A DNA stretch of 64,000 nucleotides from assembly GCA_951828515.1 (NCBI GenBank), contig OX639992.1, positions 5,496,217-5,560,216 on the forward strand, in the 5' to 3' direction. How positions within the stretch are numbered: position 1 is the first letter of the stretch; the number at the start of each line of letters is the position of its first letter. The position numbers were made by a program, and so were the translations under genes. This document shows positions 8,669 to 30,261 of the stretch, piece after piece. The DNA comes from an uncultured Poribacteria bacterium. GTDB taxonomy: Bacteria > Poribacteria > WGA-4E > WGA-3G. The notes below the pieces were generated by a model. It saw only the letters and a list, made by a program, of their open reading frames with translations. It ran no database searches and was not told the DNA's origin.

Positions 8669-9793
8669 CTAAAAGATGAACATCAAAGTGGTTTCATAGA
8701 GTCGCGAGCGGCTTGGACCGAAGCTCGGTCCAATTGTAAAGTCAATATTGAATAGATACCATCGGGCACCTACACCGCCAGTAAGGTAGTCTGTCAAGTC
8801 CGGTAAGTTAATGCCGGGTTCCGACTTGTAGCCAACACGCAAGGCGAGCATACCGCCGAGCCAGTACTCCAAGCCGAGATTCTTTTGAAGGTGCCGCCAT
8901 TCAAATGCTCGGACACCGACCCCACGATCGGACAGGAGTTGCTCACGCGTCAGTTTCTCCTCTCTTTCGGCGTTAAGTCGGTCCAAGTCAACGGCTAATT
9001 CGTTTTCATCCTCTGCCAATTTATCAATGTAGGCTGTGATACCACTGACGAGGCGAATGTGGTGATACCTCGACTGATAAAGGCTCACAGAAGTACCGAT
9101 TCGTAAGAACCGAGGTAAGGGATCTGCTTGGTTTTCATCAATGAAAGAGATACCGGGTCCAACATTCTGAACTGCAACACCGAGCGTTGTAGGGATAGAC
9201 TCGAACGGAAGGAGATATTGCATTCCCAAATCAACGGCATAAGAACTCCCACTCTCGCGTCCAAGGACCATCCGAATCATCTTACCGTTGATACCCGCAG
9301 ATAAAGACTCCGTAATGCGGTCGGCGTATGAGAACGTCAATGCGAAGTTGGTACCGAGACTTTCTTCACGAAGGATATCTGGAGAATCCGTTGTCACGGC
9401 GATCGTGCCCTGCCCCTGCATCTGGAGTGTCGCGCCGATAGTTCCGACATCGCCGAGAGGCATCGCGCCAGAGATGAAGGTATAGTATAACCCTTCCCCC
9501 GCTTCTCCGAAAGGTGCGCTGTAATCTGTATAAAACATTGAGGCTTGTGCTGCTTTCCTACCAGTACGGAATTTACTTTCGGGCATATCTGCCAATCCAC
9601 TTGGGTTCCAGAGTGACGTGGTTACATCACCTGACATCGCAGAAAAAGCGTCGCCGAGCGCTCTTGCCCGTGCGCCACCGCCAAGGTTTAAGATTTGCGC
9701 GCCTGTGCGTCCAGGTCCCGCAAGAGCCACCCCTGGAAAAAAGATGGCAAGACATAAAAACAGTATAAAGATTCTGCGTATAAACAAGTACAC
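8669..9793 (-). CDS. PorV/PorQ-like outer-membrane beta-barrel protein
   Basis: 374 aa from a GTG start with GGAGGG upstream. A signal peptide (about residues 1-25) is followed by the family hallmark GGGARARALGDAFSAMSGD and SLWNPSGLADM, as in PorV/PorQ and UPF0164 barrels of the FadL-like class. Alternating beta strands continue to a C-terminal Phe (ETTLMFIF), a common outer-membrane insertion signature. In Bacteroidetes PorV works in type IX secretion, but no other type IX genes are visible here, so the role is open. First gene of a likely operon with the two genes downstream. Confidence 0.8.
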   Translation of the reverse strand: MYLFIRRIFILFLCLAIFFPGVALAGPGRTGAQILNLGGGARARALGDAFSAMSGDVTTSLWNPSGLADMPESKFRTGRKAAQASMFYTDYSAPFGEAGEGLYYTFISGAMPLGDVGTIGATLQMQGQGTIAVTTDSPDILREESLGTNFALTFSYADRITESLSAGINGKMIRMVLGRESGSSYAVDLGMQYLLPFESIPTTLGVAVQNVGPGISFIDENQADPLPRFLRIGTSVSLYQSRYHHIRLVSGITAYIDKLAEDENELAVDLDRLNAEREEKLTREQLLSDRGVGVRAFEWRHLQKNLGLEYWLGGMLALRVGYKSEPGINLPDLTDYLTGGVGARWYLFNIDFTIGPSFGPSRSRLYETTLMFIF

Positions 9794-9835
9794 TTAATCC
9801 CTCCATTTGTTGATTCAAAATCAATGCTACTTAAT

Positions 9836-9864
9836 ATTATATAACAACGCGAGCAATAACGCAA
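9836..9864 (-). promoter_or_regulatory. Sigma-70 promoter of the PorV-like operon
   Basis: Minus strand TTGCGT (9864-9859), a 17-bp spacer and TATAAT (9841-9836), about 45 bases before the GTG start at 9793. Confidence 0.65.
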
Positions 9865-9922
9865 ATCGCTTTAATTTAGTTTACATTCACAGCAAGGAAA
9901 ATATTGCCACCCTTTTTTGATA

Positions 9923-9951
9923 TTGACAGAAAAATAGATACACGCTAAAAT
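9923..9951 (+). promoter_or_regulatory. Sigma-70 promoter upstream of CBM9-DUF5916 gene
   Basis: TTGACA at 9923-9928, a 17-bp spacer and TAAAAT at 9946-9951, diverging from the minus-strand promoter at 9836-9864. Confidence 0.65.
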
Positions 9952-9996
9952 CGTAAAATAGATTGACACCAAGAGGAGGCTCTGAAGACACAACCA

Positions 9997-12189
9997 ATGC
10001 GAATAATTAGGGCATGGTTCCCAAGCCCATATCTAACGTTAACAGTCTATCTCACCCTCTGTTTATGGGGACTTACAACATTAACTGCGGACACAGGCGA
10101 TGAATCCCCAGAAATTTCTACAAACCGCGCCATTAAAGCAGTACGCACCGAAACACCTCCAAAAATTGACGGAAAATTGGACGACGCCTGTTGGCAAAAT
10201 AGTACCAAAACGGGTGAATTGATTCAATTTGAACCGCAGCGCGGGGAACCAGCAACCCAGCCAACGACTATCTATCTCACCTATGACGCCAATAATCTCT
10301 ACATAGCATTTGAATGTTTTAAGACCGATATGAACAAACTCGCGGCGAATCTGACGCGGCGCGACTCTTTCTTCTTTTCCGATGATCATGTTGAAGTCTT
10401 AATCGATACCTTCCTTGATGGCAGAAACTGCTATGCCTTCGCCTTAAACCCACTCGGCACGCAAACCGACCGACGTTTGATTAATGAAGGTGCGAACAGA
10501 CGCACGGGCCAGTCCATGATCGGCACTGCCATCTCATGGGACTGCGACTGGCAAGGTAAAGCCGCAATTGGAACAGACAGTTGGACAGCAGAATTCGCTA
10601 TCCCGTTTGCCGAACTCCGATTTTCAAAGGGGATGGAAACCGCGACGTGGGGTATCAATTTTTGGCGAAACGACGAATCACCCGCCGAAGAACAGATGTG
10701 GTCAGATTTGGGGGAACGCCAGTACGCTGTCTCAAGATTCGGACATCTGACAGACCTCCCCATTTCAGGATTGGTCACCAAGCGACCCGTGAAATTCAAA
10801 CCGTATGCCACACTAAGACCACAGGTTCTGCAACCGGCAGAGGGTGACGCGTCAACGGCTCTGAAACCCGACGCCGGTTTAGATCTTCGGTATCCGATTG
10901 CCGACTTCACCATCGACTTGACACTAAATCCAGACTTTGCGCAAATTGAGGCGGATCCAGACCTCGTGAATCTCACGGATATTCCGCTCCGTTTTCCCGA
11001 AAAACGTCCGTTCTTTCTCGAAGGAAATGAACTCTTCCAGATGCCACTTGACCTGTTCTACAGCCGAAAAGTCGAAGCTTTACTCGGTGGCGGAAAAGTC
11101 ATCGGGAAATTCAGTAAGTACAATCTCGCGTTCATGCAAGCCGTCGCTGGATCTGAAAACCCTGATAAAGAAATAGAAGCGGGTGAGTTGCCCCTTGCAA
11201 ACTATAACTACTCCGTTTTTCGGTTGCAACGGGAAGTTGGCAAAACATCATCTGTCGGATTTTTAGGTGTGAACAAACAACGCGGGGGCACGTATGACCG
11301 CGCAGGAGGCCTCGATGCCCGCATTCAACTCCCCGCCGATACGAGTCTTAATCTGGAATATGCCAGAGAATGGAAGGCAGGCGGTCTGGATATGGCAGAG
11401 AGTACCGAGGATGATCTGGTTTTTGTGCAACTCGCTCGTCGGACAAATGTATTCTCAGTTGATGCGATCTACGCAGATTTTGGGGAGCATTTTAACCCTG
11501 AAACCGGATTCGTTCCACGCGTGGATAGACGCGGAATGGTCATCAGAAGCCGCTATAATAAACAGTACAAAGGGACTGTCGAAAGGTTGCGCGGTGAAGT
11601 CGAATATGAACGCCTCGCGAACCACGCAGGGGAACTCACAAATCACAGGGCGGGTTTTAGCGGACTCTTCGGCGTTAAAGATTTTTTCTTTCTCATCGGA
11701 CCTGAATGGTATAATCACATTGATGATGACGACAATCAATTATATGAGGACAGAACCGCTCGTTTCTTCGTCGGGTGGTTCCCACCGAAATATGTGCAAA
11801 TCCGAAACACCGGTAACTTCGGTCTACGTAATGACAAAAACATCTTCTTTATCCGCCCCGAAATCACAATCCGTCCAACGGCTAAACTCAGTTTTGAGTT
11901 CATTTTGCAGCGACTCCATGAAAAACAACCCGATACAGCAGCGTGGGAACTCTCCGAATGGACGCGTCGGCTCGTCGTGAACTATCAGTTTGCGCAGCGT
12001 ATGTATGCGAGAGCCAGTGCAGAATTCACATTAGAAAAAGAACGCCGCGTCTTCGCACTCTTCGCCTATGAATATCGCCCCGAAAGTAATCTGTTTGTCG
12101 TCTACAACGATAACCGCGATATCGAAGGGGATACGGAGCGAATTGTGTTCATTAAAGTTTCGCACCTGTTGAAAACGGACCTTTTTTAA
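9997..12189 (+). CDS. CBM9-like + DUF5916 outer-membrane protein
   Basis: 730 aa. A signal peptide (about 1-30) precedes a carbohydrate-binding family 9-like domain (about 45-240) recognised by PKIDGKLDDACWQ, LYIAFECF, DHVEVLIDTF and WTAEFAIPFAELRF. The remainder (about 255-730) fits DUF5916, a predicted outer-membrane barrel, with NPDFAQIEADPDLVNLT and FPEKRPFFLEGNELF as hallmarks and many alternating beta strands. The family is often linked to polysaccharide handling, but the substrate is not known. An AGGAGG-like site lies about 15 bases before the ATG. The stop codon directly abuts the lnt start, so the two are probably co-transcribed. Confidence 0.85.
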   Translation: MRIIRAWFPSPYLTLTVYLTLCLWGLTTLTADTGDESPEISTNRAIKAVRTETPPKIDGKLDDACWQNSTKTGELIQFEPQRGEPATQPTTIYLTYDANNLYIAFECFKTDMNKLAANLTRRDSFFFSDDHVEVLIDTFLDGRNCYAFALNPLGTQTDRRLINEGANRRTGQSMIGTAISWDCDWQGKAAIGTDSWTAEFAIPFAELRFSKGMETATWGINFWRNDESPAEEQMWSDLGERQYAVSRFGHLTDLPISGLVTKRPVKFKPYATLRPQVLQPAEGDASTALKPDAGLDLRYPIADFTIDLTLNPDFAQIEADPDLVNLTDIPLRFPEKRPFFLEGNELFQMPLDLFYSRKVEALLGGGKVIGKFSKYNLAFMQAVAGSENPDKEIEAGELPLANYNYSVFRLQREVGKTSSVGFLGVNKQRGGTYDRAGGLDARIQLPADTSLNLEYAREWKAGGLDMAESTEDDLVFVQLARRTNVFSVDAIYADFGEHFNPETGFVPRVDRRGMVIRSRYNKQYKGTVERLRGEVEYERLANHAGELTNHRAGFSGLFGVKDFFFLIGPEWYNHIDDDDNQLYEDRTARFFVGWFPPKYVQIRNTGNFGLRNDKNIFFIRPEITIRPTAKLSFEFILQRLHEKQPDTAAWELSEWTRRLVVNYQFAQRMYARASAEFTLEKERRVFALFAYEYRPESNLFVVYNDNRDIEGDTERIVFIKVSHLLKTDLF

Positions 12190-20880: not shown

Positions 20881-20948
20881 CAGTTTGGACTGGACAGCCC
20901 ACTACACGCGCGTGAAACAGTCTACAGCACACAGGAGGAGATTTGATT

Positions 20949-23399
20949 ATGAATGCGTCAAAAGACATTTTTATTCTCATAAGTCTATTCATAGGACTTG
21001 CAGCGATCACTGCTTTTGCAGAAGAAACAGAAACGCCAGTATTCGGTCCCCAGGCAGCTTCTATCACTGAACAACAGGTAGAAACTGAACCTGATAAAGA
21101 TACCACAGTTGACACCAGCAAACCAGCTGGCGATTCAATGCTCCTTGTCAAGAAAATTTCCTTTCAAGGCGTGAAAACTACCTCCGAAGATATGCTGCGC
21201 ACGCTTATCCAAACACGAATCGGGCAAGAAGTCTCTGAAGAACTCCTTACGCAAGATATGAAAAGCCTCTTCAAAGACACAGGTTTTTTCTCTGAACTCA
21301 CAGTAGATGTAGAACCCTTTGAAGACGGTGGATTAGAAATTATTTACAAGGTCGTCGAAAGTCCTAAAATCTCTGGAATTAACATTATCGGAAACGAAGA
21401 TTTGAGTACTGGCAAACTCAAGAATGAGATTATACTTCGCCCTACAGAAATTTATAGTGACCGGCGACGATGGGAAAGTGAGCGAGCCCTACAGCAACTT
21501 TATCATGAAAAGGGATATTACCTTGTTGGTATCCAAACCCACCTCGGAGATAAAGATGAAGATGCTAACACCGTCCAAATCACGTTTGAGATAACCGAAG
21601 GACCGAGGGTGCGAATTGAGGAAATCAACTTTATTGGAAACACATACATTTCCGCAAATACGCTACAGAAAAAACTCAAAACCCGGACCGGTAAACCGTT
21701 CGATCAGATGTTGTTTGAGGAAGAAGACTTATCTCTGAATCTCCGAAACTATTATCAGGACCGGGGCTTTGCACAGGTGAAAGTCGTCGGCTACGAAAAA
21801 CGGTTCACGGAAGATAAGACCGGTTTAATGCTTGATATAACTGTTGACGAAGGTCCCGAATTTATTCTCGGAACCTACACACTTGAAGTGGAAGCCGGTG
21901 CTAAAAACCTCTTCTCTGAGAAAAAGATACGCGGGATGCTCGACCCTGCGGAAGGTGAAGTCTTTAACCGCGCCACTTTTGACGAATCAATCGCAAAGTT
22001 ACAACAAGCTTACCTCGATAAAGGTTACCTACTCTCAGAGGTACTACCGGCTCCCGTTTTCAATGAAGCGGATGGCGTAGTTGACATTACCTTGAAAATC
22101 AACGAAGGAGATGTCATAATCATCGACAAGGTAATCATTACCGGGTTAGAAAAAACGCAAGAACACGTCGTTAAACGTGAGTTGGATTTTTTGGACATCA
22201 AGTCCGACGAGTTATTAGATGTAAAATCTCTACGTAAAGCGCGGCAACGTCTGTTCCAGATGGGTTCCTTTATCCGTGCTGTTGATTTCGTCCCAAGTGA
22301 TACCTCCGAAGAGAACCGCAAGGAGTTAAGAGTTAATATTGCGGAAACGCCACGAACAGGAATGTTAAGTCTTGGCGGTGGTTATGGCAGCGAAGGCGGT
22401 ATCTTCGGTGTTGCAGAGGTCGGACAAAACAACTTCCGCGGACGGGCATATCGAGTGCACTTAAAAGGCGAATTAGGCACAAGAGATCACCACACCGCCG
22501 AACTCAGTTTTGGTACCCCTTGGATTTTAGGAACACCCACGCGACTTAACGCCCGGATCTATGACAATCGCCGCTTCCGCCGCTATTACGGAACAGTCGG
22601 TGCCCTCCTTAATCGTCGTGTCGGAAGTAACTACCTCTACGACCGGTACGTTTGGGCAAGACGCGGGGCATCTCTAACACTCGGAAGACCGATCGCACAC
22701 GACATCGACCTGTCCGTGCGTTTTCGGAATGAACACGTAGAATCACACAATCCGGATCGGGAACTCTACAACCGTTCCACACGAAGTATTCTGTTCGCTC
22801 TCGGAAGAGATACCCGCGATTATCGTACCTCCCTGTTCGACCCAACAGCAGGTTCATTTCATACACTTTCTTATGAATACTCCGGTGGTATTCTTGGAGC
22901 GGACAACAAATTCCAAAAATATTACGCGGACACGAGTTGGTTCTACAGCGGGTGGTGGAACCACGTTATTGCTGTGCATGGTCGCGCAGGTATCATGCGA
23001 AGCGAAAGCTCGGATGCCTATTTCCTGTTCTATGAGAGGTTCTTCCTTGGCGGTGTAGATAGTATTCGTGGCTACGAAGATTGGGAAATCTATCCTGATC
23101 CAGATGAAACAGGTTTTATCAATCCGTACGGTGGCGATAAGGTGTTTTTTGCAAACATTGAGTATCGTGTCCCAATTTCTCAGCAACTTACAGCAGCTTT
23201 GTTCCTTGACATAGGGCAGGTGTGGGATGAAAGCACTACGAACGTCTTCAGCGAAATTAACATGAAAAAAGGCCTCGGTCTTGAGGCTCGGTTTACGATG
23301 CTCGGTATGTTAGTTCGATTAGGTTGGGGATATGGTTTGGATCGCGTTAGCGGCGAACCCGCTGGCAAATTCCATTTCACGGTTGGACCCGGCTTCTAA
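20949..23399 (+). CDS. bamA: Outer-membrane protein assembly factor BamA
   Basis: Core of the BAM machine that folds and inserts outer-membrane barrels. The ATG at 20949, after ACAGGAGGAG, is preferred over the TTG at 20943. A signal peptide (about 1-24, ending AFAEE) is followed by POTRA repeats (about 60-440, beginning LLVKKISFQGVKTTSEDML) and the Omp85 barrel (about 450-816) with the lid-loop motif FFLGGVDSIRGYE, the VRGF/Y-type signature of the family. The C-terminus ends in Phe (FTVGPGF), the usual barrel signal. Followed by ompH and lpxD, the conserved envelope-biogenesis gene order. Confidence 0.96.
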   Translation: MNASKDIFILISLFIGLAAITAFAEETETPVFGPQAASITEQQVETEPDKDTTVDTSKPAGDSMLLVKKISFQGVKTTSEDMLRTLIQTRIGQEVSEELLTQDMKSLFKDTGFFSELTVDVEPFEDGGLEIIYKVVESPKISGINIIGNEDLSTGKLKNEIILRPTEIYSDRRRWESERALQQLYHEKGYYLVGIQTHLGDKDEDANTVQITFEITEGPRVRIEEINFIGNTYISANTLQKKLKTRTGKPFDQMLFEEEDLSLNLRNYYQDRGFAQVKVVGYEKRFTEDKTGLMLDITVDEGPEFILGTYTLEVEAGAKNLFSEKKIRGMLDPAEGEVFNRATFDESIAKLQQAYLDKGYLLSEVLPAPVFNEADGVVDITLKINEGDVIIIDKVIITGLEKTQEHVVKRELDFLDIKSDELLDVKSLRKARQRLFQMGSFIRAVDFVPSDTSEENRKELRVNIAETPRTGMLSLGGGYGSEGGIFGVAEVGQNNFRGRAYRVHLKGELGTRDHHTAELSFGTPWILGTPTRLNARIYDNRRFRRYYGTVGALLNRRVGSNYLYDRYVWARRGASLTLGRPIAHDIDLSVRFRNEHVESHNPDRELYNRSTRSILFALGRDTRDYRTSLFDPTAGSFHTLSYEYSGGILGADNKFQKYYADTSWFYSGWWNHVIAVHGRAGIMRSESSDAYFLFYERFFLGGVDSIRGYEDWEIYPDPDETGFINPYGGDKVFFANIEYRVPISQQLTAALFLDIGQVWDESTTNVFSEINMKKGLGLEARFTMLGMLVRLGWGYGLDRVSGEPAGKFHFTVGPGF

Positions 23400-23556: not shown

Positions 23557-24102
23557 ATGAAACCATTTCAGTTGGGTGCTTGCAAGGCACGCCTAACTCT
23601 ATTAATTATCGGTCTCACAGTTTTCTGTTTCAGTTCGGGAAGTATCGGGCAAGAATCTTTCAAAATCGGTGTCGTGAACACACAAGTGGTTTTGGAAGGC
23701 TCCCAAAAAGCGACGGATGCAACCGAACTGCTCCAATCGGCAAGCGAACGCCTGAAAACGAAGTTGCAGCAGTTAGCAGACGAGATCAGAACGCTACAAG
23801 AAAAAAAGGCGAAAACTGAACTTTTCGTTGAAAGAGCACAGACCGCGGATTTGGATAACGAAATCCGTCTCAAACAGCAGGAATACCAACGTGAGGTCGA
23901 AATCGGTCAGCAGGCACTGCTTGAAAAAGAGCAAGAGCTGATGGAACCGATTTACAACAGCCTTCAAGAACTGATTGTTAAAGTGGGTGAGTCCGAAGAT
24001 TTCGACATCATCCTCGAAAAACGGCTCATCACACTTTATGTGAAAAAGGACTACGATTTGACCCAACAGTTAATCGGTTTGATGAACGAGGACTCCGAAT
24101 AA
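23557..24102 (+). CDS. skp: OmpH/Skp-family periplasmic chaperone
   Basis: 181 aa. An N-terminal signal peptide (about 1-32; hydrophobic LTLLIIGLTVFCFSS) precedes FKIGVVNTQVVLEGSQKA, the usual start of mature OmpH/Skp, and a long charged coiled coil (about 60-145) forming the tentacles of the trimeric holdase that escorts outer-membrane proteins to BamA. The C-terminal beta segment follows (DFDIILEKRLITLYV). Gene order bamA-skp-lpxD is typical. The 157-base gap from bamA has no clear promoter but contains the phrase GTTTTGCTTGGGTATT, seen again near 32569. Confidence 0.9.
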   Translation: MKPFQLGACKARLTLLIIGLTVFCFSSGSIGQESFKIGVVNTQVVLEGSQKATDATELLQSASERLKTKLQQLADEIRTLQEKKAKTELFVERAQTADLDNEIRLKQQEYQREVEIGQQALLEKEQELMEPIYNSLQELIVKVGESEDFDIILEKRLITLYVKKDYDLTQQLIGLMNEDSE

Positions 24103-24185: not shown

Positions 24186-25238
24186 ATGCGTATGAAACTC
24201 AAGGAAATTTGTGAACGGTTGAATGGCGATCTTTCTGGGGATGGTGATATTGAAATAACAGGCGTTTCTGGAATCAAAGAGGCACTCCCAAGTCAGATTA
24301 CCTTTGTTGCTAACCCAAAGTACCTCGCCGCCATAGCGACAACACAAGCTGGCGCAATTATTATTGGCCGCGGTGTCAACGGTAACGGTAAGCCTACTAT
24401 AAGTGTGGAGAACCCCTATTGGGCTTTCGTCAAAGTTATAGAAATGTTCGCGTGGGACAAAAACCATCGCGCACTTCCCGGGGTTCATGAGACCGCAATT
24501 TTAGGAAAGAACGTCAAACTCGGTGAGCGCGTCTCAATCCAAGCATTTGCCTATATCGCTGACAACGTTGAAATTGGAGATAATACCGTTATTCAGCCGT
24601 TCGTTTACATCGGTGAAGGCACCAAGATCGGCTCCGAAGGTCTTATCTATCCACACGTCAGTATTCGAGAAGAAGTAACCATCGGTAACCGAGTGATCAT
24701 CCACTGCGGCGCAGTTATTGGTAGCGATGGCTTCGGATTCGCACCTGTTAGCAACCAACACTACAAAATCCCACAAATCGGAACCGTGGTTATTGAAGAC
24801 GATGTTGAAATTGGAGCGAATACTACCATTGATAGAGCAACGCTTGCTGAGACGCTTATCAAACGCGGCACTAAATTGGATAATCTCGTCCAAATCGCGC
24901 ACAACGTTGTTATCGGAGAAGATTGTTGCCTCGCGGCACAAGTCGGTATCGCCGGCAGCACGACGCTCGGTGACCGAGTCAATATTGCGGGGCATGGAGG
25001 TGCGGCAGGACATCTGACACTCGGTGAAGACAGTGTCGTCTACGCCAAATCCGCGGTTACAAAGGATATGCCTGCTGGCAGTCATCTGTCTGGATTCCCC
25101 GCCCGTCCTCACAAACAGGAACTACGTATTCACGCGGCGACTCGAAAATTGCCGGAACTGCTCCCCGAATTCACGAAACTCCAAAAACGGGTTGCGGAGC
25201 TGGAAACGAAAATTCAAGAACTGGAGGACGAATCGTAA
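24186..25238 (+). CDS. lpxD: UDP-3-O-(3-hydroxyacyl)glucosamine N-acyltransferase
   Basis: Third enzyme of lipid A synthesis. 350 aa: N-terminal uridine-binding domain (about 1-100; GVSGIKEALPSQITFVANPKY), a left-handed beta-helix of hexapeptide repeats (about 105-310), including IGDNTVIQPFVYIGEGTKIG and IGSDGFGF, and a C-terminal helix rich in Leu/Glu. The catalytic histidine lies in NLVQIAHNVVIGED. Its presence shows the cell makes lipid A and hence has an LPS outer membrane, notable beside the archaeal-type lipid genes that follow. Starts 84 bases after skp. Confidence 0.95.
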   Translation: MRMKLKEICERLNGDLSGDGDIEITGVSGIKEALPSQITFVANPKYLAAIATTQAGAIIIGRGVNGNGKPTISVENPYWAFVKVIEMFAWDKNHRALPGVHETAILGKNVKLGERVSIQAFAYIADNVEIGDNTVIQPFVYIGEGTKIGSEGLIYPHVSIREEVTIGNRVIIHCGAVIGSDGFGFAPVSNQHYKIPQIGTVVIEDDVEIGANTTIDRATLAETLIKRGTKLDNLVQIAHNVVIGEDCCLAAQVGIAGSTTLGDRVNIAGHGGAAGHLTLGEDSVVYAKSAVTKDMPAGSHLSGFPARPHKQELRIHAATRKLPELLPEFTKLQKRVAELETKIQELEDES

Positions 25239-25263
25239 TTTTTTCATACGCTTTTGTTGAAAA

Positions 25264-26106
25264 ATGAAGACATTGATCGCGTATCTTGAGTTGGCGCGTC
25301 CACTTAACGGAATTATTGCCTTCATCTCTGCCTATCTGGGTGGGATGTTCGCCAGCCAAGGGAACGTGGAAAATCTCGCCGATATCCGACTCTTGTTGGT
25401 TTCTATCTCTGCCCTTGTCCTGCTTTCTGCCGGAAACGCCATAAACGATTACTGTGATTATGACATTGACCGTATCAATCGCCCGAGGCGACCGTTACCT
25501 TCTGGACGGATTCGGCGTACCAATGCCCTCATTTTTGCGATAGTCCTGACTGTAATCGGCATCTGGTTGGGGACTCTTATTAACAGAAATGCTACAGGCA
25601 TTGCCATCCTTGTGTTCGTTGCGCTCGCAAGTTATGCTTTCTGGTTGAAACGCACCCCTTTCGTCGGCAATTTAGTCGTCAGCGGATTAACGGGTTTAAC
25701 CTTCATTGCTGGTGGTGTAGCGATAGATTCGGTACGAGGTACACTCATTCCAGCAATCTTCGCCTTTTTGTTCACAACGGCGCGGGAAATCGTCAAAGAC
25801 CTTGAGGACACAGAAGGAGACCTGAAAAATAACGCGACAACCCTTGCGACGCTCAACCCGAAGATTGCAGTCCGAACAGCCATCGGTTTCATGGCATCTG
25901 TTATTCTGTTTAGCCCCATCCCTTATGTATTTGGTTGGTATTCATGGCACTACTTGATTGCGGTCCTAATTGGTGTTGACGTGGTGCTCATCGGTTTGGC
26001 GATTCGCCTGTTTCAAGATGCCTCGAAAGAGAGTTGCGCCTCCATTCAGCGTTGGATGAAATGGGATATATTCGTCGGACTCGGAGCAATCTATCTCGGT
26101 TTTTAA
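25264..26106 (+). CDS. UbiA-family prenyltransferase, DGGGP-synthase-like
   Basis: 280-aa integral membrane prenyltransferase with about eight or nine hydrophobic helices. The first Asp-rich motif (NAINDYCDYDIDRINRPRRP) and LPSGRIRR that follows, plus the second motif VKDLEDTEGDLKN, match archaeal (S)-2,3-di-O-geranylgeranylglyceryl phosphate synthase more closely than UbiA or MenA. That enzyme adds the second prenyl ether to GGGP. A GGGP synthase gene lies 1.4 kb downstream, which supports this reading; menaquinone or other prenylation remains possible. It begins 25 bases after lpxD. Confidence 0.8.
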   Translation: MKTLIAYLELARPLNGIIAFISAYLGGMFASQGNVENLADIRLLLVSISALVLLSAGNAINDYCDYDIDRINRPRRPLPSGRIRRTNALIFAIVLTVIGIWLGTLINRNATGIAILVFVALASYAFWLKRTPFVGNLVVSGLTGLTFIAGGVAIDSVRGTLIPAIFAFLFTTAREIVKDLEDTEGDLKNNATTLATLNPKIAVRTAIGFMASVILFSPIPYVFGWYSWHYLIAVLIGVDVVLIGLAIRLFQDASKESCASIQRWMKWDIFVGLGAIYLGF

Positions 26107-26123
26107 TTTTACCTTAATTACCA

Positions 26124-27344
26124 ATGATACATTATGATGAAATTATCGCATTTTTGGAGAAAAAAAACTCCGATGTAGATGCCATTTCTCGCTTTAAGCA
26201 GGCGTATTATACTTTCTGCAAAACGGGTACATGGTCCCCCGCATATCAAGTATTTGTTACAGGTTGGCAACAACTTGATGGGGTTATGCTGTTAGAACCG
26301 GAGGACACTTATGACAGTGACTACCGAGTTCATCTCACAACGACAACCGAACGGAGCTTGAGAGAACTCCTAATCGCTTTTCCGAGACGATACACAGGTC
26401 TGTTCCATCCCAACGAAAAGTGGGTAGAAAATAGAATCCATGATGTTTTAGAAGGGGACGTCATTCAGACCGATGCTGGCTCTTTCTATCGGTGCATCAA
26501 ACGGGGTAGCAGCAGAAGTGCGGAACAACGAACTGTCTCGAAACGGAAGGATACAATAGCATCGCATATTCGCAAATTAACCTCTCTGAAGGGGAAACTT
26601 GAACATTCTCAATTCATCATCGAAGGACATCTGATAGTAGAACGAGCAGTAGCAGATGGACTGCCGATCGAAACACTTCTGTATACGACCGGATTTGCGG
26701 CGACATCCGAAGGGAAAGCTCTGCTCACGCGTGCAGTATCAGAAAACCTATCGTCGTATCAGGTAAACGATGGCGTGATGGGTTCAATTACGACGACGCG
26801 ACCGGTACCCTCTATAATCGCTTCGGTTTATCTCAGCTATCCCAACTTCCTTTCGGCGTCCGGAAACCTCAATTTTCACTTTAGTCCGAGATGTATATTG
26901 CTCATCGCAGAGAACATTGGTAATCCTGATAACCTTGGAATGACATTACGGACGGCAGACGCGGCGGGTGTATCCGCTGTTCTATTGAGTGGTGGCGGCG
27001 CGAGTCCTTTTCATAAAAACTGTATCCGTGCCTCCCGCGGAGCAGTTGGTCGTCTACCTTTATTTTATACACCAGACACCAGCGATGCAATTGAGGCACT
27101 CCGTGTCTCAGGCTGGCACGTGTTGGGTGCCACAGCAAGTGCCAAAAACCAACTGCATGAAATGGAATTTACGCTACCTACAGCTATCGTCGTAGGCAAC
27201 GAGAATACAGGTCTCTCCACTGACGCACGTGAATGCTGCCCGGAATTAGTTCGTATCCCTATGGCATCAGGACAATCATCACTCAACGTCGGAGTCGCCG
27301 CAGGTGTTCTGCTTTATGAATTAACACGACAATACAGAATTTGA
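26124..27344 (+). CDS. TrmH/SpoU RNA methyltransferase with N-terminal extension
   Basis: 406 aa. The C-terminal 260 residues are a SpoU/TrmH 2'-O-ribose methyltransferase with trefoil-knot motifs: NPDNLGMTLRTADAAGV (motif 1), AIVVGNENTGLS (motif 2) and SGQSSLNVGVAAGVLLYE (motif 3), preceded by a substrate-binding domain (FIIEGHLIVERAVADGLP). Residues 1-145 are unusual for the family: a helical and beta mix without recognised motifs (FKQAYYTFCKTGTWSPAYQV). The target may be tRNA or 23S rRNA. It follows the UbiA gene by 17 bases and ends just inside the GGGP synthase promoter. Confidence 0.88.
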   Translation: MIHYDEIIAFLEKKNSDVDAISRFKQAYYTFCKTGTWSPAYQVFVTGWQQLDGVMLLEPEDTYDSDYRVHLTTTTERSLRELLIAFPRRYTGLFHPNEKWVENRIHDVLEGDVIQTDAGSFYRCIKRGSSRSAEQRTVSKRKDTIASHIRKLTSLKGKLEHSQFIIEGHLIVERAVADGLPIETLLYTTGFAATSEGKALLTRAVSENLSSYQVNDGVMGSITTTRPVPSIIASVYLSYPNFLSASGNLNFHFSPRCILLIAENIGNPDNLGMTLRTADAAGVSAVLLSGGGASPFHKNCIRASRGAVGRLPLFYTPDTSDAIEALRVSGWHVLGATASAKNQLHEMEFTLPTAIVVGNENTGLSTDARECCPELVRIPMASGQSSLNVGVAAGVLLYELTRQYRI

Positions 27345-27369
27345 CAAATAGCCATAAATATGATAAAAT
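27341..27369 (+). promoter_or_regulatory. Sigma-70 promoter before GGGP synthase
   Basis: TTGACA (27341-27346), a 17-bp spacer and TAAAAT (27364-27369). The -35 box overlaps the stop codon of the TrmH gene. The predicted leader is about 88 bases. Confidence 0.75.
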
Positions 27370-27463
27370 TCTTTAAATCACTGGCGATCCATAAGTCCTC
27401 AACATCAGAAAGGACATCGCATTTAAACTGATATTTAGTACAGGCAAAGAAGGAAAATCGCAT

Positions 27464-28210
27464 TTGAGATCAAATTGGGTTCTTAACTACTTTCACGAGG
27501 TATTGAAAAAGCACCATGCTGGTTATTTCGTTCTAATTGATCCGGAGCAGTGTGAAATTGAAAAATGCGTTAAACTTGCAAGCGAAATAGAGCAGGCGGG
27601 TGCGGACGCAATTTTGCTCGGTGGCAGTTTTTTAACGAACGATTTGCACCACATCGCGAAAGCACTTAAGCAAGAAACAGAACTCCCGCTGGTGTTATTT
27701 CCGGGTGATTCGATGCACCTCACCCCGCACGCTGATGCGATCCTGTATATCAGCCTCATAAGTGGACGCAACCCGAACTATCTCATTGGCGAACAGGTCA
27801 AAGCGGCACCGTGGATACAACGTTACGCCCTTAAACCCATTCCAACTGGCTACATGCTGATTGAAGGTGGTAACAAAACCGCCGTTGAATTTATGAGCGG
27901 CACAACGCCCATCCCACGCGATAAACCCGACATTGCGGGACCCCATGCATTGGCGGCACAGTATCTCGGTATGCAAATGGTATATCTGGAGGCAGGTAGC
28001 GGTGCTGTGCACTCTGTACCAGAAGAAATGATCACAACAGTGAAAAATCAAATCAGCATCCCGATCATCGTCGGTGGCGGTATTCGCACACCAGCAATTG
28101 CCGCTAAAAAGGTAGAAGCAGGTGCTGATTTCATCGTCACAGGCAACATTCTTGAAGAAAACGGATCCCTCGAACTCATGAAAGCATTCGCTAACGCCAT
28201 TCACGGCTAA
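27464..28210 (+). CDS. Geranylgeranylglyceryl phosphate synthase (GGGPS/PcrB family)
   Basis: 248-aa TIM barrel of the GGGPS family, forming the first ether bond of archaeal-type lipids from sn-glycerol-1-phosphate and a prenyl diphosphate. Seen: HAGYFVLIDPEQ at the N-terminus, ADAILLGGSFL, LVLFPGDSMHLTPHADAI, the family motif MVYLEAGSGA and the phosphate-binding IIVGGGIRTP. The length and the GGSFLT element fit group II GGGPS, known from Bacteroidetes-type bacteria and some archaea, better than the Firmicute PcrB (heptaprenyl) group. The start is a TTG with GAAGGAAAA upstream. No glycerol-1-phosphate dehydrogenase is present in the window. Confidence 0.88.
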   Translation: MRSNWVLNYFHEVLKKHHAGYFVLIDPEQCEIEKCVKLASEIEQAGADAILLGGSFLTNDLHHIAKALKQETELPLVLFPGDSMHLTPHADAILYISLISGRNPNYLIGEQVKAAPWIQRYALKPIPTGYMLIEGGNKTAVEFMSGTTPIPRDKPDIAGPHALAAQYLGMQMVYLEAGSGAVHSVPEEMITTVKNQISIPIIVGGGIRTPAIAAKKVEAGADFIVTGNILEENGSLELMKAFANAIHG

Positions 28211-28269: not shown

Positions 28270-29118
28270 ATGGCTGAAGTTAAAGAAATACACATAGAAA
28301 CAGAAGAAACAGAAACAGAAGCGTCTGCCGATAACGATTCCACCGACGGTAAAGAAAAAACACTTGTCGAACGGATGCGAGAAATAGCGGAGACAGCACT
28401 TGATACAGTCAAATCAGAAGTGAAAAAGGAGATAGAGGAACGCATCGCGCCTGTCGAAAAAACGGCTGCCAATCTCACCTCGGAAGTCAAAGAAGAAGTA
28501 GAGTCGATCGTACAAAGGGTACGCGAGCAATACGAAGCAGAACGCGAAGACTTATTGCACACTGAAATCGAAAAAGAGGTAGAGACAGCTGTGCAACAGG
28601 TACATGAGGAATACAAGGCGGAACGCGACCGCCTTCTACGCACAGCCGCCGAAGCGGAGAATACCAAAAAACGCTTGCAAGCTGATTATCAACGGCAACT
28701 TAAATTCGCAAATGAAGGAATTTTAGAAGGGATGATTCCGGTCTTGGATAGCCTGGAAGCCGCGATCAAAAGCGTAGCAGAACAGGGTGAAACGAGCGAT
28801 ACATCACCAACCTTTACAACCTTCAACGAAGGCGTGCTGCTTGTCCATAAACAACTCTTAGATGCCCTCAAAATACACGGACTGACACCGATTGAAGCAG
28901 TCGGTGAAACATTCGATCCGAATCAGCACGAGGCACTCCTTGTGACAGCATCGGATGATGTGCCAGAGGGAAAAATTATTGAGGAATTTCGGCGTGGTTA
29001 TATGTTGCGTACCCGTGTCCTGCGCGCCTCTCAAGTTGTCGTCTCACAGGGACCTGCCGAAGAAGAAACATCAGACGATGTGCCAGATGATACGGATGCT
29101 ACTGACACTACTGAATAG
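28270..29118 (+). CDS. grpE: Nucleotide exchange factor GrpE with long N-terminal extension
   Basis: DnaK nucleotide exchange factor. At 282 aa it is well over the usual 180-210. Residues 1-130 are highly charged and Glu/Lys rich with coiled-coil character, including two related segments (SIVQRVREQYEAEREDLL and TAVQQVHEEYKAERDRLL), suggesting internal duplication of the dimer helix. The conserved core follows: FANEGILEGMIPVLDSLEAA and the signature GETFDPNQHEALL with a C-terminal beta-wing (LRASQVVVSQG). dnaJ starts 18 bases later; dnaK is not in the window. Confidence 0.92.
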   Translation: MAEVKEIHIETEETETEASADNDSTDGKEKTLVERMREIAETALDTVKSEVKKEIEERIAPVEKTAANLTSEVKEEVESIVQRVREQYEAEREDLLHTEIEKEVETAVQQVHEEYKAERDRLLRTAAEAENTKKRLQADYQRQLKFANEGILEGMIPVLDSLEAAIKSVAEQGETSDTSPTFTTFNEGVLLVHKQLLDALKIHGLTPIEAVGETFDPNQHEALLVTASDDVPEGKIIEEFRRGYMLRTRVLRASQVVVSQGPAEEETSDDVPDDTDATDTTE

Positions 29119-29136: not shown

Positions 29137-30261
29137 ATGACGCAAAAACGCGATTATTATGAGATTCTAAACGTCAATCGTGGTGCCGATGAAGACGAAA
29201 TAAAGAAGGCTTACCGCAAACTCGCCATCCAATTCCATCCGGATAAAAATCCGGGCGATGAAGTCGCTGAAGATAAATTTAAAGAAGCCACAGAGGCTTA
29301 TGAAGTGCTGCGAGACCCTGAGAAGCGGGACCGTTATGATAGATTCGGGCACGCAGGACTGGAGGGCATGGGTAGCGACTTCGGAGGCTTTGGTGTGGAC
29401 CTTGACGACATTTTCGGTGATGTTTTCGGCGACCTCTTCGGAGGATTCAGCGGTGGTACGCAGCGTACACCTAAACGTGGACGCAGTTTACAATATAACC
29501 TTGACGTAACACTGGAAGACGTTATTCACGGCAAAGAAGTCACAATCGAAGTGCCACGGGTTGAATCGTGTCCCACATGTGAAGGCAGTGGCGCGAAAAA
29601 AGGAACGAATCCTGTAACGTGTCCTCAATGTTACGGCAGGGGACAAATCAGCCAATCACAAGGTTTCTTTACAATGTCCCGCACGTGTCCGAGATGTCGT
29701 GGGGAAGGTGAAATTATTCAAGATCCCTGCCAACCCTGTGGTGGAAGAGGTGTTGTTCGAAACACGCGCGACATTAAGTTAAATATTGACCAAGGCGTTG
29801 ATACAGGTTTCAAGTACCAACTACGAGGCGAAGGCGAAGCGGGGGCAAACGGCGCGCCTCCAGGTGATCTGTTTGTCGTTATCAACGTCGAAGCGCACCG
29901 ACGTTTCCAACGTGATCGAAACGACCTAATTACATCAACCAAAATCTCATTCGTCCAAGCCGCCCTCGGTGGGAAAATTGAAGTTGATAGTATTGATGGA
30001 AAGGAAGAATTGCATATTCCACCGGGTACACAGTACGGTGCCCAACTGCGTATCCCTAACAAAGGGGTACCGCATTACAGACGCTCTTATTCAGGAGATT
30101 TGGTCGTGAGGATGGAAATTGAAACCCCAGTGCACCTCAATGCGGAGGAGCGAAAAACATTAGAAGAATTTGCGAAACTAAGAGGAGAATCCTATCAGAG
30201 CGAGCACGGCGGATTCTGGGATAAACTCCTCGGTAGACACGAAGATGAGGAACCCGAATAG
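29137..30261 (+). CDS. dnaJ: Chaperone protein DnaJ
   Basis: Hsp40 co-chaperone stimulating DnaK ATPase. 374 aa: J-domain (1-70) with the essential HPD in [11 protein letters not shown], a Gly/Phe linker ([20 protein letters not shown]), four CxxCxGxG zinc modules ([32 protein letters not shown]) and two C-terminal beta domains ([17 protein letters not shown]). A complete type I DnaJ. AGGAAGGG precedes the ATG. The grpE-dnaJ pair is co-directional; GroEL is far upstream on the opposite strand. Confidence 0.97.

Follow-up and report, generated by a model that had tools for sequence, protein, structure and literature searches.

Several bacteria are known to encode both enzymes that form the ether bonds of archaeal lipids, geranylgeranylglyceryl phosphate (GGGP) synthase (GGGPS) and the UbiA-family digeranylgeranylglyceryl phosphate (DGGGP) synthase (DGGGPS). 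In Ca. Cloacimonetes a group II GGGPS and a DGGGPS-type UbiA are co-localised in genomes with bacterial lipid genes, no glycerol-1-phosphate (G1P) dehydrogenase (G1PDH) or CarS was found (Villanueva et al. 2020, PMC7852524), and the orthologues expressed in E. coli yield unsaturated phosphatidylglycerol (PG)-archaeol (PMC7852524). Orthologues in the Fibrobacteres–Chlorobi–Bacteroidetes (FCB) group likewise comprise both genes, usually without G1PDH (Coleman et al. 2019, PMC6431249). We analysed a pair of this known kind in 64,000 nucleotides (the window) of contig OX639992.1 from an uncultured Poribacteria bacterium, where a ubiA gene and a GGGPS gene stand downstream of bamA, skp and lpxD. 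We consider it probable that this pair catalyses both steps that form ether bonds in a diether-lipid pathway of archaeal type, and that it has been inherited vertically within Poribacteria. Although the pair is of a known kind, its clustering in this phylum had not been reported. What appears to be new, judging from sequence, is the clustering of the pair with a ferredoxin and a geranylgeranyl reductase (GGR) in other Poribacteria, and a GGR that is a candidate selenocysteine (Sec) enzyme.

Sequence and fold searches, like the catalytic residues, point to the window UbiA being a DGGGP synthase. Its best match in the PDB is the M. jannaschii enzyme 6m31 (E=1.5e-37; runner-up 1.8e-7), and an AlphaFold model (pLDDT 89.8) has the DGGGPS structures 7bpu and 6m31 as its top fold matches (E~1e-15, 34% identity), with other UbiA structures at ~1e-7 and 17% identity. 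We compared the residues mutated in MjDGGGPS (the Asp motifs, N62, Y125, K130 and D180/D183/D187) and found that N61, D65, D69, Y124, K129, D179, D182 and D186 of the window protein are the corresponding catalytic or positioning residues. At the site of D180, MenA has Asn, and E. coli UbiA as well as the UbiA/MqnP and CtaB proteins of this genome have Ala. PRK12884 (227, cut-off 269) and PRK12882 (205, cut-off 296) are by far the best-scoring curated families, both below cut-off. An unconstrained tree separates Poribacterial and archaeal DGGGPS from quinone UbiA with support of 99/92. Because the scores fall under the equivalog cut-offs and the tree does not settle the rooting against quinone UbiA, we label the protein DGGGPS-like. 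The genome's UbiA/MqnP and CtaB, and a further UbiA-like paralogue, are encoded elsewhere than the pair. Another UbiA, divergent and scoring weakly on the DGGGPS model (L039 1441-2364; G000:C1:5659654), is of a type present in nearly all Poribacteria, those without GGGPS included.

Profile and structure comparisons confirm 27464-28210 as encoding a predicted group II GGGP synthase and not a heptaprenyl PcrB. The best PDB matches are Methanothermobacter 4mm1 (E=2.6e-56) and Flavobacterium 4jej (2e-52), the protein passes the curated GGGP model TIGR01769 (224.3 bits, cut-off 161.6), and it fails the heptaprenyl model (33.9 bits, cut-off 260). A PcrB identity is excluded by these profile and PDB scores and not by the tree, which holds no PcrB and joins the protein to FCB and group II sequences against a single group I haloarchaeal outgroup on a very long branch. 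In the alignment the Tyr/Tyr/Glu of the G1P site (GY... and YLE motifs) and the phosphate-binding glycines are invariant; we used motifs because a review's MtGGGPS residue numbers (Y134/Y178/E180) did not match the chain. F143 occupies the aromatic-anchor site described for hexameric GGGPS (PMC9385802). The last phosphate loop reads VTGN and does not have the group II Thr that replaces the group I Asn; the position is N, S or T among other Poribacteria, and we take the deviation to be a minor feature of a protein that is group II in its overall sequence similarity. The first-pass annotation had seen family motifs of the archaeal enzymes in both proteins, and the catalytic residues of both are indeed conserved against MjDGGGPS and group II GGGPS. 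It had also named phylogenetic placement of the UbiA with quinone enzymes and of the GGGPS with PcrB as the outcome that would overturn its view; profile scores, residues and solved structures place the proteins with neither, while the trees alone are not decisive.

Using 81 Poribacterial genomes, we found both genes in 69, neither in 9 and only one in 3. The two adjoin in 57 of the 69, on the same strand with UbiA upstream without exception, and several deeper lineages also keep UbiA close to GGGPS. The nine genomes with neither gene belong to three genera, and one of these, whose closed member (G023) has both, accounts for five of them. The gene set bamA-skp-lpxD-ubiA-(trmH)-gggps-grpE-dnaJ recurs across the order. 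In trees, Poribacterial UbiA and GGGPS each form one clade, lying within a bacterial clade apart from archaea; a recent transfer is therefore not indicated. The proposed link to the FCB group stood in that FCB sequences are the nearest to these genes, but not in taxonomy, as NCBI files Poribacteria as incertae sedis, outside that group. We also noted a DHVE2 archaeon (L121) with DGGGPS (9183-9998) directly upstream of, and overlapping, GGGPS (9995-10732), in the same order as in Poribacteria.

The genome carrying the window is a single contig of 5.85 Mb. As the first-pass annotation described, UbiA and GGGPS flank a TrmH gene immediately downstream of bamA-skp-lpxD, and all genes from bamA to dnaJ lie on the + strand:

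20943..23399, + strand: bamA, four POTRA domains and Omp85 (Pfam; synteny), a conserved upstream neighbour
23557..24102, + strand: skp/ompH (Pfam OmpH; synteny)
24186..25238, + strand: lpxD (TIGR01853, 379 bits, cut-off 242)
25264..26106, + strand: UbiA prenyltransferase, DGGGP synthase-like, 280 aa (Pfam UbiA, 150 bits)
26124..27344, + strand: SpoU/TrmH-family RNA 2'-O-methyltransferase, 406 aa, between UbiA and GGGPS
27341..27369, + strand: sigma-70-like promoter TTGACA-17-TAAAAT, 11/12 consensus with extended TG (pattern match only)
27464..28210, + strand: predicted group II GGGP synthase, 248 aa (Pfam PcrB family, 163 bits)
28270..29118, + strand: grpE, a conserved downstream neighbour (synteny)
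29137..30261, + strand: dnaJ, a conserved downstream neighbour (Pfam; synteny)

The gaps are 25 bp 5′ of UbiA, 17 bp 5′ of TrmH and 119 bp 5′ of GGGPS, whose start codon is TTG with AAGGA ahead of it. The bamA open reading frame (ORF) as listed also begins at TTG, perhaps slightly upstream of the true start. Directly 3′ of lpxD lies ubiA and not fabZ, lpxA or lpxB (24186-25264). TrmH is a passenger gene, found in the same place in a second family and in one genome of a third (f2 and G016 of f3, respectively, with the ten Poribacterial families labelled f1-f10 and the window's family being f1). The promoter-like site lies in the gap where relatives have ferredoxin and GGR; such consensus matches are not enriched across the region.

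In eight of the ten families (f2, f3, f4, f6, f7, f8, f9 and f10; in f7, two of the genomes) a GGR gene separates UbiA from GGGPS or sits at the ends of the contigs that carry them; in G006 we saw it only on the side of UbiA. The best PDB match of the Poribacterial GGR is TaGGR (3oz2), the T. acidophilum digeranylgeranylglycerophospholipid reductase (E=2.6e-81), and complete GGRs of the relatives score 224-234 bits on TIGR02032 (cut-off 159). In 13 of 14 cases a two-cluster ferredoxin ORF lies just upstream of GGR and stops near its start; this ORF is 72 aa in most, but as called in L240 it has 232 aa, the last part being the ferredoxin. In Methanosarcina, according to Isobe et al. 2014 as cited in PMC9385802, a ferredoxin-like protein encoded beside GGR raises GGR activity in E. 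coli. Family f1 had neither GGR nor ferredoxin at the locus in any stretch examined, and the window's genome has lost both. The best TIGR02032 match in that genome (L161, 139 bits) was rejected as its GGR, since FADH2-dependent halogenases are its top PDB matches. A long UbiA-GGGPS gap in G027, considered as a hidden GGR, proved to be a duplicated TrmH.

We infer the enzymatic activity, head groups and membrane location of the pathway as follows. Geranylgeranyl diphosphate (GGPP) would come from an IdsA-like short-chain synthase (L221), a GGPP-type enzyme that scores 230 bits on the IdsA model, below its cut-off, and has a Trp five residues before DDxxD, an archaeal type-I feature (PMC9385802); L220 is a longer-chain prenyl synthase. 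GGGPS would join GGPP to glycerol phosphate to give GGGP, the membrane UbiA would attach another geranylgeranyl chain, yielding DGGGP, and the ordinary bacterial CdsA (L060, between frr and dxr) and PgsA (L222) could then attach a head group. Elsewhere in the phylum, the flavin reductase GGR and the ferredoxin encoded at the locus would saturate the chains. Since the window's genome is without GGR and ferredoxin, its product is predicted to be unsaturated, unless another reductase acts. The glycerol backbone could possibly come from glycerol-3-phosphate or from an unknown G1P route, as for Cloacimonetes (PMC7852524). Among other lipid genes, L226 (1408-2046) is a CDP-alcohol transferase nearest to archaetidylinositol and phosphatidylinositol-phosphate synthases, below curated cut-offs. 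For the first acylation of ordinary ester-lipid synthesis, PlsY (PF02660) had no match in the genome; the acyltransferases seen are a PlsC-like protein (L227), an Aas-like fusion (L228) and an NHx4D acyltransferase without assignment (L229).

We found no G1PDH-type gene within the window, in agreement with the first-pass annotation, which had placed the G1P source outside it and proposed a genome search for G1PDH and CarS. That search gave no CarS, and a G1PDH is doubtful. The sole G1PDH-like protein, L001 (G000:C1:3516908-3520210), keeps the D/H/H metal ligands and lies, by eye, beside an oligogalacturonate-lyase-like gene; it is common in the genus and not tied to the pair. Of the 70 genomes with GGGPS 40 have it, as do 2 of the 11 without (p=0.02), a distribution that does not support it as a dedicated G1P source. 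L003 was rejected as AroB beside shikimate kinase, and L002, L004 and L005 look by eye like ordinary iron alcohol dehydrogenases. Two class-level relatives have AraM-like G1P dehydrogenase candidates better than L001 (L141 in G004 and L142 in G003), the best PDB match of L141 being 9h4x (E=2e-43).

Several observations weigh against reading the pair as part of such an ether-lipid pathway. The only match to CarS is L060, which is CdsA and was rejected as CarS; L001 reaches 116 bits against a cut-off of 413, is missing from genus g3 even though the pair is retained there, and occurs in G070 and G071, where the pair is missing; and a TIGR02032 search reading through stops returned no GGR at all in the genome. 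The Fisher test for joint presence and absence of the pair (p=2e-9) is too strong, related genomes not being independent, and adjoining genes may vanish together with one missing contig in drafts. For UbiA, an approximately unbiased (AU) test did not reject attachment of quinone UbiA to the Poribacterial stem (p=0.33), leaving the root of the tree unfixed. The absence of CarS, of an own GGR and of a convincing G1PDH, together with the several lineages without both genes, could also mean that the pair makes a minor isoprenoid glycerol ether outside the membrane, comparable to the heptaprenylglycerol of Bacillus, and not a bulk membrane phospholipid. We regard this as somewhat unlikely: DGGGPS adds a second chain, unlike the Bacillus product, and bacterial CdsA and PgsA take archaeal substrates in E. 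coli according to work cited in PMC7852524.

Membership of a family as diverse as UbiA, with a tree root that is not fixed, raises a different alternative, in which the protein prenylates a quinone precursor or an aromatic compound (cf. EboC/Ubi-297) and merely resembles DGGGPS. Ubi-297 of the ebo cluster prenylates quinolines, and its closest characterised relative is a putative DGGGPS (PMC9235831). However, separate UbiA/MqnP and CtaB proteins are encoded in the genome, the EboC model gives the window UbiA only 84 bits (cut-off 250), the catalytic residues are of the DGGGPS type, and the gene is paired with, and jointly missing with, GGGPS and clusters with GGR and ferredoxin, making such a role distinctly unlikely. 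A degradative role, with both enzymes running in reverse on ether lipids from sponge or sediment archaea, was proposed by Coleman et al. 2019 (PMC6431249) for FCB bacteria that lack G1PDH and would suit the lack of a convincing G1PDH here, but it is highly improbable given a GGR and adjacent ferredoxin that fit saturation during synthesis and the transcripts and E. coli lipid production of the Cloacimonetes orthologues, which favour synthesis (PMC7852524).

The GGR of some relatives appears to be a selenoprotein with selenocysteine at the catalytic Cys position. In eight genomes of families f2, f3 and f4 (L045, L046, L047, L048, L050, L051, L052 and L235) the catalytic Cys codon is an in-frame TGA, in 8/8 at Cys-48, within the context EKRQEIGxPVR[TGA]AEG. 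Apart from this single TGA the genes are open over 397-399 codons, with no further stops or indels downstream. Six genomes of f6-f10 have Cys at this position, as do archaeal GGRs; the Cys of TaGGR aligns with it exactly and that of SaGGR within one gap. In the Sulfolobus GGR this Cys is reportedly indispensable for catalysis (PMC10821996). The 45 bases starting with the TGA form a common hairpin with three compensated pairs, 90.6% paired versus at most 56% when slid, and this hairpin is missing from the Cys-form genes. Its spacing and loop G fit the bacterial selenocysteine insertion sequence (SECIS) pattern. The covariation is the stronger evidence, since folding energy is only moderately low relative to shuffles (z -1.1 to -2.9, six tested). 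The Sec forms cluster in the tree with support of 80/98. In closed genome G023, the one in which Sec machinery was checked, selA, selB and tRNA-Sec(tca) lie side by side at C1:47913-51502 (L246 7913-11502), beside mutL; no selD was seen in the 1.2 Mb sampled from this genome. A pseudogene or a general reassignment of TGA might also account for the codon, and an Rfam search of L050 gave no SECIS family. We consider this very unlikely because of the invariant position and intact frame, purifying selection downstream of the codon (dN/dS ~0.03 for the two most similar pairs), the covarying hairpin and its absence from Cys forms, the selenocysteine genes of G023, and the continued use of TGA to end genes, two of these GGRs among them. 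The literature we searched holds no selenocysteine GGR, although work outside that search could, and the word geranylgeranyl is absent from a 2026 review of prokaryotic selenoproteins (PMC13188914).

Taken as a whole, the locus may represent an inherited Poribacterial operon of DGGGPS, ferredoxin, GGR and GGGPS that gives a mixed membrane beside lipopolysaccharide and whose reductase one order made a selenoenzyme, a scenario to which we give slightly less than even chances. For the window's own organism a mixed archaeal and bacterial membrane, as raised by the first-pass annotation, is possible. Whether such membranes exist in living bacteria is an open question of the lipid-divide debate. A conserved DGGGPS-ferredoxin-GGR-GGGPS cluster is stronger genomic evidence than scattered homologues and names Poribacteria as test organisms, with a natural comparison across families having Sec-GGR, Cys-GGR or, as in the window's family, none. 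If true, the Sec-GGR would found a new selenoprotein family and connect selenium with archaeal-type lipid synthesis for the first time.

Each component can be set beside a characterised counterpart. The window UbiA shares fold and motifs 1-3 with M. jannaschii DGGGPS (6m31/7bpu; 34% identity), but falls in the bacterial clade and has F170 for S171 and L25 for I29 at tunnel-2 sites. The window GGGPS has the YLEAGSGA and VGGGI motifs and the aromatic anchor of the group II enzymes of M. thermautotrophicus (4mm1) and F. johnsoniae (4jej), at 42-45% identity, differing by the Asn in VTGN where group II mostly has Thr. With B. subtilis PcrB, a heptaprenylglyceryl phosphate synthase, it shares superfamily and reaction type, but PcrB is group I, uses a C35 substrate and matches at only E=1.4e-5. 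The Poribacterial GGR is 40-45% identical to TaGGR and shares the PVRC motif with the catalytic Cys, which is replaced by an in-frame TGA in f2, f3 and f4, while the gene is missing from the window's genome. Coleman et al. 2019 (PMC6431249) do not name Poribacteria, and the passages considered here describe no operon or GGR linkage. Cloacimonetes are the only bacteria in which PMC7852524 found the two genes co-localised, and Poribacteria do not appear in that paper; compared with that pair, the Poribacterial relatives have a ferredoxin and a GGR, the latter apparently a selenoprotein, between the two genes.

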